Part shown: positions 2,006 through 43,400 of the stretch, in pieces
Layout: each line of letters starts with the position of its first letter
Numbering within the stretch: position 1 is the first letter of the stretch
Origin: Candidatus Peribacteraceae bacterium
Lineage (GTDB): Bacteria; Patescibacteriota; Gracilibacteria; Peribacterales; Peribacteraceae
DNA length: 43,978 bases
Assembly (NCBI GenBank): GCA_028703835.1
Contig: JAQVMB010000013.1
Coordinates: 1-43,978, forward strand
Direction: 5' to 3'
Translations under genes and position numbers: made by a program
The notes under the pieces: model-generated
Databases searched by the model: none
Told to the model about the DNA's origin: nothing
The model's input: the letters and a program-made list of their open reading frames with translations, nothing else

Positions 2006-3610
2006 TCAGATTGGCAGGGCAATGCGGGCGAGCTGCGCCTTGTTGACCGCATCAAAGAGCGCCCGAACCGTGGTTTCGGTCACATCCGTCCCCTCCGCCA
2101 CCCCCTGATATTCCTGTTTGTCGACCGTGATGGTGATCACCGTCACGCTCCCGCTCTTCTCGCCACGGGAACGGTCGGACTGCTCCCACTGATCCTCGAA
2201 CGCAAAATCGATGCCGGACTTCTCCCGCAAGAGCGCCGCCACGCCTTGCAAAGCGCCCTGCCGTTCCTCCGAACGCGCTTCCCACTGCTCCTGCCCGTTG
2301 CGGCAGTCCACCGTGAGGCCCATCAGCCACTGACCGTTCTTCACGGCATGGAGAAACTGCTGCTTCTCCCCGTTTTTCACGGGAACGCCGATGCCGAAGT
2401 ACTGCGCCAGCAGGGAACGATACTCTTCGGGAGTCACCGTCCGGCAGTCCGTCCCCCGCTTCTGCTCCGCGTAGGCCTTCGCGAACGCCGTGAACGGGAC
2501 GAGATCCGCTTCCGGAATCCGGTAGCCCAAGCGCTGCGCATACAAATCCGCGACGCCCTTGCCCGACGTCGCCCCGAATTCGATCGTGAAACCATCGAAC
2601 CCGACGTCGCGCGGGATGTTGTCACGGTATGCGCCGTTCCCGAGCCCGATGCGACCCTGCGCAGCGACGTGCGTCCCGGTCCCCAGGGCATTGACGCCCG
2701 CACCCACGAACGGCGTATTGCGGGGAATGGCGACGCCGCTGAGCGCGCTCACGACGCGGCTGAGGCGGACGAGCATCTCACTCCGAATGTGGTCGAAGTG
2801 GAAGCCCGAGAATCGGTCCTTCCGGTACCGCGACGTCATGACCGTTTCGGCGAGGGATGAGTTGCCCCCGCGCTCGCCGAGCCCGTTCACCGTCAGCTCC
2901 GCCTGCTTCTTGGCGTCCCGCATGCCATGGAGCGCAAAGAGCGTATTGGCGGTCGCAAGTCCCTGATCATCGTGGTTATGCGTGCTGACGCGCAGCCGCC
3001 GCTCGCGGATCGCCGGAACGTGGTCGTAAAGGTACTCCATCATCCCCTGCATCTCCGTGGGCAGCGCCTGGCCGTAAGTATCCGGCGCGTTGAACGTCGT
3101 CCCCCCCGCCTCGGCCACCCGGCGGGCGATGCGCGCGAGGAATTCCCACGGCGTGTTCGTCGCATCTTCCGCGGAGTACTCCACGTCCGAAGTATACCGC
3201 CGCGCGCGTTCGATATGCCCGGCGATGTCGTCCAAGTACTGCTGCTCCCCCATCCCGTGGAACACGTTCTGCAAGTGCTCCTTCGAGGACGCGCGGTACA
3301 AATGGATGCGGGCGCGTTCGGCACCCTCGAGCACGGAGGCCGCAGCCTCGATGGCCTTGTCGTTGCAAATAGCCAGCGAGCAGATGACCGGGCGGCGGAC
3401 TTCGCGGGAGATCTGCGCGATCGATTGCCGGTCGAACGCGCCGGAGAAGGCATTGCCCGCCTCGATGACATCCACGCCGATCTCGTCGAGACCATGGGCG
3501 ATCAGGATTTTCTGCGGCTGGCTGAAGAGCACGCCCGCCTGATCCCCGTCACGGAGCGTGGTGTCGAGGATGATGGTATCACGATCCGTCTGATGTTCCT
3601 GGAATGTCAT
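2006..3610 (-). CDS. leuA: 2-isopropylmalate synthase (LeuA)
   Basis: A 534-aa HMGL-like aldolase that would condense acetyl-CoA with 2-oxoisovalerate, the first committed step of leucine synthesis. Signatures are DTTLRDGDQAGV near residue 15 (usually DTTLRDGEQ), the metal-binding STHNHDDQGLATAN and the LeuA motif VNGLGERGGN. A C-terminal region of about 130 residues, ending in VTVITITVDKQEYQGVAEG, sits where the leucine-sensing allosteric domain lies in long LeuA enzymes. ATG 3610 was chosen because the motif spacing then fits, and upstream codons overlap the leader terminator. No other leu genes are in the window. Citramalate or homocitrate synthase are alternatives, but the leucine-rich leader peptide upstream strongly favours leucine synthesis. 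Confidence 0.85.
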   Translation of the reverse strand: MTFQEHQTDRDTIILDTTLRDGDQAGVLFSQPQKILIAHGLDEIGVDVIEAGNAFSGAFDRQSIAQISREVRRPVICSLAICNDKAIEAAASVLEGAERARIHLYRASSKEHLQNVFHGMGEQQYLDDIAGHIERARRYTSDVEYSAEDATNTPWEFLARIARRVAEAGGTTFNAPDTYGQALPTEMQGMMEYLYDHVPAIRERRLRVSTHNHDDQGLATANTLFALHGMRDAKKQAELTVNGLGERGGNSSLAETVMTSRYRKDRFSGFHFDHIRSEMLVRLSRVVSALSGVAIPRNTPFVGAGVNALGTGTHVAAQGRIGLGNGAYRDNIPRDVGFDGFTIEFGATSGKGVADLYAQRLGYRIPEADLVPFTAFAKAYAEQKRGTDCRTVTPEEYRSLLAQYFGIGVPVKNGEKQQFLHAVKNGQWLMGLTVDCRNGQEQWEARSEERQGALQGVAALLREKSGIDFAFEDQWEQSDRSRGEKSGSVTVITITVDKQEYQGVAEGTDVTETTVRALFDAVNKAQLARIALPI

Positions 3611-3684: not shown

Positions 3685-3756
3685 CTACGCGCGCTGCACC
3701 CCTTCCGCCGTAAGCAGGAGGAGTCCGAGCCCGAGGAGGAGCGCGCTGCGTCGCAT
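3685..3756 (-). CDS. leuL: Leucine-rich leader peptide (LeuL-like)
   Basis: A 23-codon frame begins MRRSALLLGLGLLLL and ends AEGVQRA. Eight of residues 6-15 are leucine, mostly CTC codons. It starts 10 nt after a TACAAT -10 box, so its mRNA is nearly leaderless. The last codons contain GGAAGGGG (complement of 3699-3706), which is perfectly complementary to CCCCTTCC (complement of 3657-3664) in the 5' arm of the terminator. A ribosome stalled on the Leu codons would leave this strand free to form an antiterminator, while a ribosome at the stop codon would mask it. This is the standard logic of leu-operon attenuation, read here directly from the sequence. Confidence 0.85.
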   Translation of the reverse strand: MRRSALLLGLGLLLLTAEGVQRA

Positions 3757-41154: not shown

Positions 41155-41442
41155 TCAAAAGGTCATATCCCTGTCCTGCATACCCAGATCCACTTGGCTG
41201 GTGCGAAGGAGAACACTGAGACGCTCGACAGTCGTTTGCCGTTCCCGTTCCGGCAAAGCACGAATGATGCTCTCTGCAACGATCACATCCGTACGATAAC
41301 AACCCGCCAACGCAGGCCCCAACACTTTCACCCCCTCCGTCACATCGCGAGTGATACGACGCAACGCATCACCGAGCGAGAGGCGTGAAAGCGCGGACGG
41401 GCTGACCGGATTACCTTCTGAAGAATCGACGGGATGGGACAT
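41155..41442 (-). CDS. Small cassette protein G, unknown
   Basis: A 95-aa protein starting MSHPVDSSEGNPVSPSALSR. A short disordered N-terminus is followed by a helical domain (LGDALRRITRDVTEGVKVLG, then VAESIIRALPERERQTTVER). No family recognised. It is the last of seven consecutive minus-strand small genes and is convergent with uvrD, 4 nt from its stop. An in-frame upstream start at 41667 would overlap gene F and is rejected. Confidence 0.6.
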   Translation of the reverse strand: MSHPVDSSEGNPVSPSALSRLSLGDALRRITRDVTEGVKVLGPALAGCYRTDVIVAESIIRALPERERQTTVERLSVLLRTSQVDLGMQDRDMTF

Positions 41443-41458: not shown

Positions 41459-41767
41459 TCAGGAGAGAATTTGCTGCTGCCGGACTCGCACAACGTCGGC
41501 CATGGCGGCGCGCACGTCGTCTTTGTCGCCTTCGAGTAGCCGGTACGCATCCAAGGCAAACGCAAGGTCGCCGGTCCTTGGCAACCGCATGGCCGCATTG
41601 AGATCGGGAGGCATGACGCCCTCGGAACGTTCGACGATCTGCAGAAGGGCCCCGTGAAATGCATCATTGGTCATCGCCGTGGCCGGAGCGGCAGCCGCAG
41701 ATGCGGCAGAATCGAGCACGACGCTTTCGGGAATGGCCGAAGCTTGTTCAGCAGGAACGGAGGACAT
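41459..41767 (-). CDS. Small cassette protein F, unknown
   Basis: A 102-aa protein starting MSSVPAEQASAIPESVVLDS. The first 30 residues are Ala/Ser-rich, and the rest is helical (TNDAFHGALLQIVERSEG, FALDAYRLLEGDKDDVRAAM). The upstream sequence is T/C-rich without a Shine-Dalgarno sequence. It starts 30 nt after gene E ends and stops 16 nt before gene G begins, so it is probably in one operon with them. Confidence 0.6.
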   Translation of the reverse strand: MSSVPAEQASAIPESVVLDSAASAAAAPATAMTNDAFHGALLQIVERSEGVMPPDLNAAMRLPRTGDLAFALDAYRLLEGDKDDVRAAMADVVRVRQQQILS

Positions 41768-41797: not shown

Positions 41798-42127
41798 TCA
41801 GGATCTGTCGCCCGGTTTCGGGCCGCGGAAGAACACTTGCCGCAGCTGGAAACGGAGATCGTGCATGGCATGGATCGCCTGCACGCGGTCGGACGGCTCC
41901 AGGTCGCGAAGGCCGTCCAGGACGGCGGGAGCATCCGCGGAACCGTTGAGACCGAGCAAGCGATGCAGTTGTGCCGTCATCGGCTGGCCTGCCTCACGGA
42001 GCGTCAACGCGAGCGCCTCGGCTTCGCGGGCAAGGAACGTTTCATCATCGACGGAATGGCCGCCAACCGTCCGTTCTCCGGAGGATGCGGAAGCGTTTTC
42101 GACGAGAGAGAATGATGCGGTGGACAT
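41798..42127 (-). CDS. Small cassette protein E, unknown
   Basis: A 109-aa protein starting MSTASFSLVENASASSGERT. After a polar N-terminus come several amphipathic helices (FLAREAEALALTLREAGQPM, APAVLDGLRDLEPSDRVQAI). A repeated theme of this cassette is a polar 20-30 residue tail followed by a domain of about 70 residues with Leu-rich helices. No family recognised. It starts 20 nt after gene D ends. Confidence 0.6.
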   Translation of the reverse strand: MSTASFSLVENASASSGERTVGGHSVDDETFLAREAEALALTLREAGQPMTAQLHRLLGLNGSADAPAVLDGLRDLEPSDRVQAIHAMHDLRFQLRQVFFRGPKPGDRS

Positions 42128-42147: not shown

Positions 42148-42414
42148 TCAGGAAGGGACGATATCGCGGGGCGCGAGCGTCGGGTTGGCCGCGGCGGGGA
42201 ACAGGTTGCGGACGTTCAGGAGCGCGGACGTGGACAGCGTTTCCAATTGCGCGCGGCAGGAATCGGCGTCCGTGACGGGCAAGGGAACACCCGGCATGTG
42301 GAGCACCGCGCCCCGTTCGCGCAGGGAGATGGTGACGTACGCCAGCGTCTGATCGATGAGAGCGTTGCGCGCTTCCATGACGGAAGCGATGTCGGAAGGA
42401 CCAGGTGTTTCCAT
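42148..42414 (-). CDS. Small cassette protein D, unknown
   Basis: An 88-aa protein starting METPGPSDIASVMEARNALI. It is mainly helical with a short strand-like part (LAYVTISLRERGAVLHMPGV). No family recognised. It starts 19 nt after gene C ends. The upstream C/T-rich sequence lacks a Shine-Dalgarno sequence, as for the whole cassette. Confidence 0.6.
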   Translation of the reverse strand: METPGPSDIASVMEARNALIDQTLAYVTISLRERGAVLHMPGVPLPVTDADSCRAQLETLSTSALLNVRNLFPAAANPTLAPRDIVPS

Positions 42415-42433: not shown

Positions 42434-42781
42434 TTAAGGACGTTGAAAGGCGGCATTGGCGCGGATGACGGCAATGAGGACACCGCGGCGATCCTCGACA
42501 GCGAGTGACAACAGGGCATGTTCCATCGCGGGCGCCGTCCAGTGCCGGGCATCGAGCCCGAGAGGAAGCGCGATCGTGTCGGAGAGAGGACATTCTTCCA
42601 TCACGCATCCGTGGAGAAGCGCGCGCACCGCATCGGAAATGAAAGAAACATTCTCGACGAACTGTCTCATGAAGTACTCCTCCGCCTCCTGTTCTTCGAG
42701 AACGGGAAGGCGTCCCGGTCGGGAAAGCGGGACATCCGGAACGACGGAGCCGACGGGCGGTTCTTCGATGGCGGAAATCAT
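42434..42781 (-). CDS. Small cassette protein C, attenuator-controlled, unknown
   Basis: A 115-aa protein starting MISAIEEPPVGSVVPDVPLS. A Pro-rich N-terminus is followed by acidic and hydrophobic helices (EEQEAEEYFMRQFVENVSFI, APAMEHALLSLAVEDRRGVL). ATG 42781 was chosen because the next in-frame ATG upstream (42802) lies in the T-run of the terminator at 42803-42831. No promoter lies between that terminator and the gene. It is the first gene of the stretch C-D-E-F-G under the Phe/Tyr leader peptide at 42854-42934. Function unknown. Confidence 0.6.
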   Translation of the reverse strand: MISAIEEPPVGSVVPDVPLSRPGRLPVLEEQEAEEYFMRQFVENVSFISDAVRALLHGCVMEECPLSDTIALPLGLDARHWTAPAMEHALLSLAVEDRRGVLIAVIRANAAFQRP

Positions 42782-42802
42782 GGGAGAAGAGGGGAAATGC
42801 AT

Positions 42803-42831
42803 ACAAAAACGCCTTCCGGTCGGGGGAAGGC
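42803..42831 (-). terminator. Attenuator terminator before gene C
   Basis: Minus strand: GCCTTCC, loop CCCGACC, GGAAGGC, then GTTTTTG. A perfect 7-bp GC-rich stem 23 nt after the leader-peptide stop and about 22 nt before ATG 42781. Confidence 0.9.
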
Positions 42832-42853
42832 TCCTGTGCGATCAGATGTCGGT

Positions 42854-42934
42854 CTACTTCTGATACGACGGCTCCTTCCCCGCGCTAAACGCGAAGTAAT
42901 AGAAGCCGAAGGAGGAGGATGGGCGCAAAGCCAT
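42854..42934 (-). CDS. Phe/Tyr-rich leader peptide 2
   Basis: A 26-codon frame containing SSSFGFYYFAFSAGK: four Phe and two Tyr codons within residues 9-16. It starts 10 nt after TACAAT. Right after the aromatic codons, GGGGAAGG (complement of 42874-42881) is perfectly complementary to CCTTCCCC (complement of 42823-42830), which includes the terminator 5' arm. A ribosome stalled at Phe/Tyr codons would leave it free to form an antiterminator. The geometry is the same as at leuL-leuA, which argues that this is amino-acid attenuation and not a random small ORF. Confidence 0.75.
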   Translation of the reverse strand: MALRPSSSFGFYYFAFSAGKEPSYQK

Positions 42935-42944
42935 GAGAGACCGC

Positions 42945-42972
42945 ATTGTACTCAATCGGAACCGTTCGTCAA
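42945..42972 (-). promoter_or_regulatory. Promoter of leader peptide 2
   Basis: TTGACG (42967-42972), 16-bp spacer, TACAAT (42945-42950). The -35 lies in the last codons of gene B. Confidence 0.75.
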
Positions 42973-43221
42973 CCGAAACGGCCAGCTCTTCGGATCCTGC
43001 ACGCCCATATGCTTTCCCAGCCGTTCCCGGACAGCCGCGCAAATGGCCCGCACAACCGTGGGCCGCATGCGGCGCGTGCCGTTCACGAAGAGAATGCGTT
43101 CCACCTCCTGTAACGTATCCACTTGCCGGTCTTGCAATCTTAAACCAGGCAAAAGATGGGACACGGCATCCTGCAAATCAGGAAGATAATACGTGGGAAC
43201 ATCGGGAGCATCGGATTCCAT
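42952..43221 (-). CDS. Small cassette protein B, attenuator-controlled, unknown
   Basis: An 89-aa protein starting MESDAPDVPTYYLPDLQDAV. A short acidic N-terminus precedes helices (LQDRQVDTLQEVERILFVNG, PTVVRAICAAVRERLGKHMG). No family recognised. No promoter is visible between the terminator at 43244-43271 and the ATG, so it depends on readthrough from the leader peptide 1 promoter. The next promoter (for leader 2) begins inside its final codons. Confidence 0.6.
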   Translation of the reverse strand: MESDAPDVPTYYLPDLQDAVSHLLPGLRLQDRQVDTLQEVERILFVNGTRRMRPTVVRAICAAVRERLGKHMGVQDPKSWPFRLTNGSD

Positions 43222-43243
43222 GATGGGAAAAAGGGAAACAAAC

Positions 43244-43271
43244 AAAAACGCCTCCGCTTCTGGGGGAGGTG
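43244..43271 (-). terminator. Attenuator terminator before gene B
   Basis: Minus strand: CACCTCC, loop CCCAGAAGC, GGAGGCG, then TTTTTG. One A-C mismatch in a 7-bp stem. It is 22 nt before ATG 43221. Confidence 0.72.
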
Positions 43272-43292
43272 CCATACGTGAGGAGTGTCAGA

Positions 43293-43364
43293 TCACGCGT
43301 AGGACGCCGCCCCCTTCGTAAAGAAGGAAGCAAAGGCGCCGGCAAACGCGCGGGACAGGGACAT
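43293..43364 (-). CDS. Phe-rich leader peptide 1
   Basis: A 23-codon leaderless frame beginning MSLSRAFAGAFASFFTKG and ending ASYA. Four Phe codons (7, 11, 14, 15) precede GGGGGCGG (complement of 43307-43314), which can pair with CCTCCCCC (complement of 43262-43269, one mismatch) in the terminator 5' arm. It starts 8 nt after TACACT. Layout and spacing match leader peptide 2 and leuL. The peptide itself resembles leader 2 in its late S-Y residues, which may reflect common origin. Confidence 0.72.
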   Translation of the reverse strand: MSLSRAFAGAFASFFTKGAASYA

Positions 43365-43372
43365 GTGCGCGA

Positions 43373-43400
43373 AGTGTATACCTGACGTTGTCGGGGTCAA
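43373..43400 (-). promoter_or_regulatory. Promoter of leader peptide 1
   Basis: TTGACC (43395-43400), 16-bp spacer, TACACT (43373-43378). It overlaps the gene A stop codon. Confidence 0.75.

Follow-up and report, generated by a model that had tools for sequence, protein, structure and literature searches.

The pheA and pheST leaders of enterobacteria are attenuators, and Rfam holds a Phe leader family. Similar features were noted on the minus strand of a 43,978-nt stretch of DNA (the window) from a Candidatus Peribacteraceae genome, namely a Phe-rich peptide and a mutually exclusive antiterminator and terminator, and in relatives of this organism the genes controlled are likewise those of Phe biosynthesis. 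The Peribacteria leader differs from pheA and pheST in that the leader ORF is apparently leaderless, with its start codon 7–12 nt after the -10 box, in the placement of its stop codon beyond region 2, in the admixture of Tyr and Trp codons according to operon slot and, within the window, in the control of small unknown proteins only. It also lacks an Rfam counterpart; thus, comparison of the window leader with the families of Rfam 15 (Phe leader, T-box and other leaders) gave no score above the gathering threshold, and a match to RsmY on the opposite strand (E 1.7) was rejected. The host is a tiny symbiotic-type bacterium of Ca. Peribacteria, the family Ca. Peribacteraceae lying within the CPR. 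Outside the proteobacteria and Firmicutes, amino-acid attenuators have been predicted in Actinobacteria, where leader peptides ahead of amino-acid genes were likewise predicted by comparative analysis but differ from the Peribacteria leader in phylum and leader sequence (PMC1262725). Genomes of Ca. Peribacter riflensis, which belongs to the same family of organisms, were inferred to lack most amino-acid synthesis, and the text of that study does not mention aromatic, shikimate, chorismate, attenuat- or leucine (PMC4736985). No amino-acid attenuator in the CPR was found in the literature searched, and the leader described here, a conserved RNA family absent from Rfam in which the leader peptide is itself leaderless, is likely the first case of classical attenuation in these bacteria. 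Judged from sequence comparison, it is probably a genuine conserved attenuator family of known mechanism with unusual controlled genes, not described in the sources searched.

The site ahead of gene C is very probably a ribosome-mediated transcription attenuator of the trp/phe type. The order on the minus strand is promoter, leader 2, mutually exclusive antiterminator and terminator, and then gene C followed by D-E-F-G. The sigma70-type promoter (42945-42972; TTGACG, 16-nt spacer, TACAAT) precedes leader peptide 2 (42854-42934; 26 codons, MALRPSSSFGFYYFAFSAGKEPSYQK), which contains Phe and Tyr codons and is conserved across genera. The ATG of this leader at 42934 is 10 nt past the -10 box, so that the transcript would be leaderless or nearly so, and the stop codon is at 42854. 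Region 1, which contains CGGCUUC and was placed at approximately 42898-42910 from the fold, pairing counts and an own-partner test, is able in the fold to pair with GGAGCCG of region 2, i.e., the usual third pairing. Region 2 (42869-42881; GGGGAAGGAGCCG) is the 5' strand of the antiterminator, and within it GGGGAAGG (42881-42874) is complementary to CCTTCCCC (42830-42823). The latter constitutes region 3 (42823-42830), the partner of either region 2 in the antiterminator or region 4 in an intrinsic terminator (42806-42831) formed by a 7-pair stem, GCCTTCC/GGAAGGC (42831-42811), and a following GTTTTT. The promoter, near-leaderless peptide, complementarity, terminator and gene order listed in a first-pass annotation were thus all confirmed, with correct coordinates and sequence.

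The RNA switch appears to sense shortage of Phe and Tyr. When charged tRNA-Phe/Tyr is scarce, a ribosome would stall on the run of Phe and Tyr codons upstream of region 2, leaving region 2 free to pair with region 3; no terminator would form and C-D-E-F-G would be transcribed. When Phe and Tyr are plentiful, the ribosome would translate through region 2 and reach the stop codon. With region 2 either covered or, once the ribosome had passed, paired again with region 1, the 3:4 terminator would end transcription. In folding, which had been recommended for the alternative states as a check in the first-pass annotation, the antiterminator came out as the most favourable structure for the 3' part (z -3.3) and was preferred in the minimum-energy fold, and the 1:2 helix also appeared, but the textbook states are not always reproduced by single-sequence folding. 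When 237 kb of the genome, approximately 190 kb of it on contigs other than the window, were scanned for an amino-acid-rich leader with antiterminator and terminator, the C-operon site, a leucine site and one Val-rich repeat artefact were returned, the last (ORF 26999-26904) being rejected as an attenuator since it adjoins a long inverted repeat.

The attenuator claimed for the C operon stands, but the first-pass annotation overlooked gene B, a second attenuated unit with a Phe leader and terminator of its own. The B unit begins with a promoter at 43373-43400 (TTGACC, 16 nt, TACACT), followed on the same minus strand by Phe-rich leader peptide 1 (43293-43364; MSLSRAFAGAFASFFTKGAASYA), a terminator at 43243-43266 and gene B (42952-43221; 89 aa). 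In relatives, this slot belongs to a prephenate-dehydratase-like gene or to another small protein. Leader 1 matched the covariance model described below weakly (43245-43349; 20 bits, E=0.0017), and its 2:3 pairing was no better than that with swapped partners. Under Phe/Tyr shortage this leader would likewise let B be transcribed.

Conservation of the leader was evident from searches of related genomes. When a DNA pattern based on the antiterminator was used, the leader turned up in about nine genera. From 17 of the leaders so found a covariance model was constructed, which detected it in 46 of 74 family genomes with E values down to 1e-25. In a sample of the class, matches at E<=0.001 were present in 41 of 353 genomes, just two of which lay outside the family, both with weak matches. 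A Phe/Tyr leader, MASRAFNGFFFYPFSEGKELTCA, with a TTGACA and TACAAT promoter was also noted in a MAG labelled Uhrbacteria (L105:191-262), ahead of two unknown proteins and an enolase-superfamily gene; it could possibly stem from misbinning.

The search of relatives for an aromatic-rich leader, as had been advised, yielded leaders before homologues of gene C and, in other genera, before enzymes of aromatic amino-acid synthesis. Genes downstream of the leader in relatives encoded a DAHP synthase, a prephenate-dehydratase-like, TyrA-like or chorismate-mutase-like protein, or C homologues and small proteins, and the leader amino acid matched the enzymes among these. Tandem units were present in several genera (L119-L128) and comprised a leader, a dehydratase-like gene or small B-slot protein, a second leader, and then a C homologue, a DAHP synthase or both. 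The window shows this tandem arrangement too, with B first and then C-G. All C homologues found (L106/L133, L107/L126, L108/L123, L104/L128, L110/L120, L111/L122, L113/L124, L121 and L125) have stayed behind a Phe/Tyr-rich leader, with no drift to non-aromatic codons, most of these loci having been selected by leader. The residue rule appears finer than the Phe/Tyr control originally proposed. Thus, leaders of the first slot (dehydratase or B) are almost pure Phe, those of the second (DAHP synthase or C) mix Phe, Tyr and Trp, and both window leaders obey; the combined share of Tyr and Trp was 6% in the former as opposed to 40% in the latter (Fisher p=1.7e-7, for a grouping into slots drawn up after the leaders had been inspected and with partly related rows).

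The enzymes behind these leaders in relatives were identified by profile matches, i.e., PF00800 for the dehydratase (E 1.7e-36 and 8.9e-28) and PF00793 for DAHP synthase I (E 2e-42). On alignment to Tyr-sensitive DAHP synthase chains, the DAHP synthase retains KPRTT, GAR, GxKN, ILRG, SH, ES and TD. The TRF motif of active dehydratases is missing from the dehydratase, NITQ standing in the one protein aligned for the NITR/NVTR of solved enzymes, and NITQF was likewise seen in the L130 and L131 proteins. In the prephenate-dehydratase-like protein at L123:2637-3518, TRF is altered to TQL. Short Phe leaders were also noted before chorismate-mutase-like proteins (L144:5764-6431 and L151:2382-2990) in which a wide gap separates the two matching parts, as though an insertion lay between them. 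A weak leader-like match precedes an amino-acid exporter of RhtB/LysE type (L158:2520-3303).

The aromatic pathways to which these enzymes belong were largely undetected. The genome of the window (98.5% complete) gave no match for DAHP synthase I, prephenate dehydratase, DHQ synthase or chorismate synthase, and no leader was seen ahead of its weak chorismate-mutase match (contig C11). Among 30 genomes with a strong leader, 18 carry a DAHP synthase or dehydratase-like gene and none was found to have chorismate synthase, so that the guarded enzymes look like diverged orphans. The single-contig genome G030, for example, has a DAHP synthase and no match for DHQ synthase, chorismate synthase, dehydratase or chorismate mutase. 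This orphan-enzyme pattern appears to recur across genomes, absence from a draft genome never being proof, and prompts one to ask what benefit auxotrophic symbionts draw from parts of a pathway kept under starvation control. Strong leaders and chorismate synthase appeared to exclude each other (0/30 compared with 18/44, p=1.6e-5), but this was rejected as a separate result because it is confounded by phylogeny; pathway-bearing genomes, e.g., G041 and G025, can show weaker leader matches.

Such losses would be expected if the attenuators were relics, the aromatic genes having disappeared and B-G being remnants or fast-drifting genes without a role in Phe or Tyr metabolism, and in keeping with this, no relatives of B, D, F or G could be detected among the sequences fetched, other than marginal matches of D. 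This explanation is nevertheless considered unlikely. The C-operon leader scored 96 bits (E 2e-20), on a par with leaders ahead of intact enzymes, the C family has been kept between genera behind the same leader, and the leader persists in the twelve strong-leader genomes that lack both DAHP synthase and the dehydratase. A maintained attenuator remains the preferred reading. In this lineage, the switch would have been applied to aromatic amino-acid genes and companion small proteins and, in the genome of the window, where known aromatic enzymes were not found, it would have been retained twice for small proteins alone. B-G would therefore most likely act in answer to a shortage of Phe/Tyr.

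The pairings on which attenuation depends were themselves conserved. Pairing with the own partner was better than with partners swapped from other genera for both 2:3 (p=7e-4) and 1:2 (p=8e-8), although base composition may account for part of the pairing energies, including this own-partner advantage. The register of the 1:2 pairing was evident from 86.6% paired positions as opposed to 32-67% when the strands were slid, and the 3:4 stem varied too little to give a covariation signal. The family thus combines a short ORF with a run of cognate codons, conserved and mutually exclusive 2:3 and 3:4 pairings, and the 1:2 pairing, all of which are features of a ribosome-mediated attenuator. The leucine site in the window, cited in the first-pass annotation as having the same geometry and returned by the same scan, served as a positive control. 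It consists of a Leu leader (3685-3756, minus strand; MRRSALLLGLGLLLLTAEGVQRA) and a terminator at about 3671-3637, followed on that strand by a gene for a 534-aa 2-isopropylmalate synthase-like protein (2006-3610). This LeuA homologue is diverged, as indicated by a score of 307 bits compared with an NCBIfam cut-off of 532. That the Leu leader stands ahead of its cognate enzyme is an indication that the architecture, in the genome of the window, reads its own codons.

A nascent peptide that itself arrests the ribosome, with some ligand rather than tRNA charging as the cue, could also give rise to a conserved leader peptide (FxYGFxxFxxFxAGKEP), and the AGK(E) residues and central Gly are indeed well conserved. 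The AGK residues are, however, accounted for by the antiterminator strand GCGGGGAAG and the Gly by GGC of region 1, while Phe, Tyr and Trp interchange among the peptides, and the architecture also occurs in a Leu-rich version before leuA and in Pro-rich versions before proB-like genes. Peptide arrest is therefore regarded as very improbable in comparison with attenuation by codon reading.

Codon reading by attenuation was further indicated by the composition of the leaders. In the core of 49 Phe/Tyr leaders, Phe, Tyr and Trp accounted for 51% of codons in frame as opposed to 3% and 12% in the other frames, and both synonymous Phe codons were present (TTC 142, TTT 75); the covariance model might favour TTC-like sequence, yet it also recovered Leu-, Ile- and Pro-rich leaders. 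Of 53 leaders of the Phe/Tyr, Leu and Ile types, 48 carried TTGAC no more than 45 nt from the start codon, compared with a background of 1.6%, in a promoter region that lay outside the covariance model. Given this placement and a distance of 7–12 nt between -10 box and start codon across the family, leader mRNAs probably begin at the start codon or a few bases before it. A chance Phe/Tyr-rich ORF ahead of an ordinary terminator has a negligible probability since, although short ORFs and terminator-like sites are common (3.7 of the latter expected in shuffles), short ORFs with at least six Phe, Tyr or Trp per 12 codons numbered two in the window (two starts of one leader) compared with 0-1 in 15 dinucleotide shuffles, and chance is refuted by conservation across genera as well as by frame bias and promoter placement.

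The proteins encoded behind the window leaders are small. Gene C (42434-42781; 115 aa, predicted to be helical) has its true start at 42781 (MISAIEEPPV...), the N-terminus matching those of C homologues, and is followed on the minus strand, with gaps of 16-30 nt, by D (42148-42414; 88 aa), E (41798-42127; 109 aa), F (41459-41767; 102 aa) and G (41155-41442; 95 aa), the last being convergent with a UvrD-type helicase gene. No convincing match for B-G, including D, F and G, was found among families in Pfam, PADLOC or PHROGs, and a match of C to DpdH in PADLOC (E 0.015, 22 residues) was rejected as chance. The predicted fold of C is a five-helix domain (residues 30-113 helical, mean pLDDT 77.9), for which a search of solved structures gave no Foldseek match at E<=0.001 and, among the families listed, a best VIA Z of 4.5, which is in the range of common helical arrangements, so that no fold was assigned. 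Membership of B, C, D, E, F and G in a single paralogous family was rejected; modest profile support was seen for two pairs, C with E (hhalign E 1.8e-4) and C with the D family of relatives (5.8e-4), and for no others. Apparently, the only functional clue to B-G is how they are controlled. The claim that C-G are under Phe/Tyr attenuator control gains from the leader family standing before aromatic enzymes in relatives, but the proteins themselves would be tied to Phe and Tyr solely by this control and by position in the aromatic operons of relatives. The leader codons name the starvation answered and thereby provide a testable condition for proteins that family and fold searches left unexplained.

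Versions of the architecture for other amino acids follow a similar pattern. Pro-rich leaders were noted before proB-like kinases (L136:4208-4296, L142:3475-3590 and L154:4298-4407), and ProA was not detected in the genomes with these ProB-like genes (G014, G055 and G098; identity examined for two of the three, with scores below the NCBIfam cut-off). Similarly, aconitase/LeuC (PF00330) was not detected in the genome of the window and is present in G003 of the same genus. One speculative generalization, with little more than a slim chance of being correct, is that the Phe, Phe/Tyr, Leu and Pro attenuators of Peribacteria control either small proteins or single, diverged homologues of enzymes at pathway control points (DAHP synthase, prephenate-dehydratase-like, LeuA and ProB), the rest of the pathways being absent, and that the products would answer starvation other than by making the amino acid in the cell, e.g., by acting on or with the pathway of a host or partner cell. 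Leu- and Ile-rich leaders were also noted before small uncharacterised proteins (L137:3226-3342, L152:2373-2483, L153:5335-5445 and L141:4844-4958), indicating that the small-protein pattern is not limited to Phe and Tyr.
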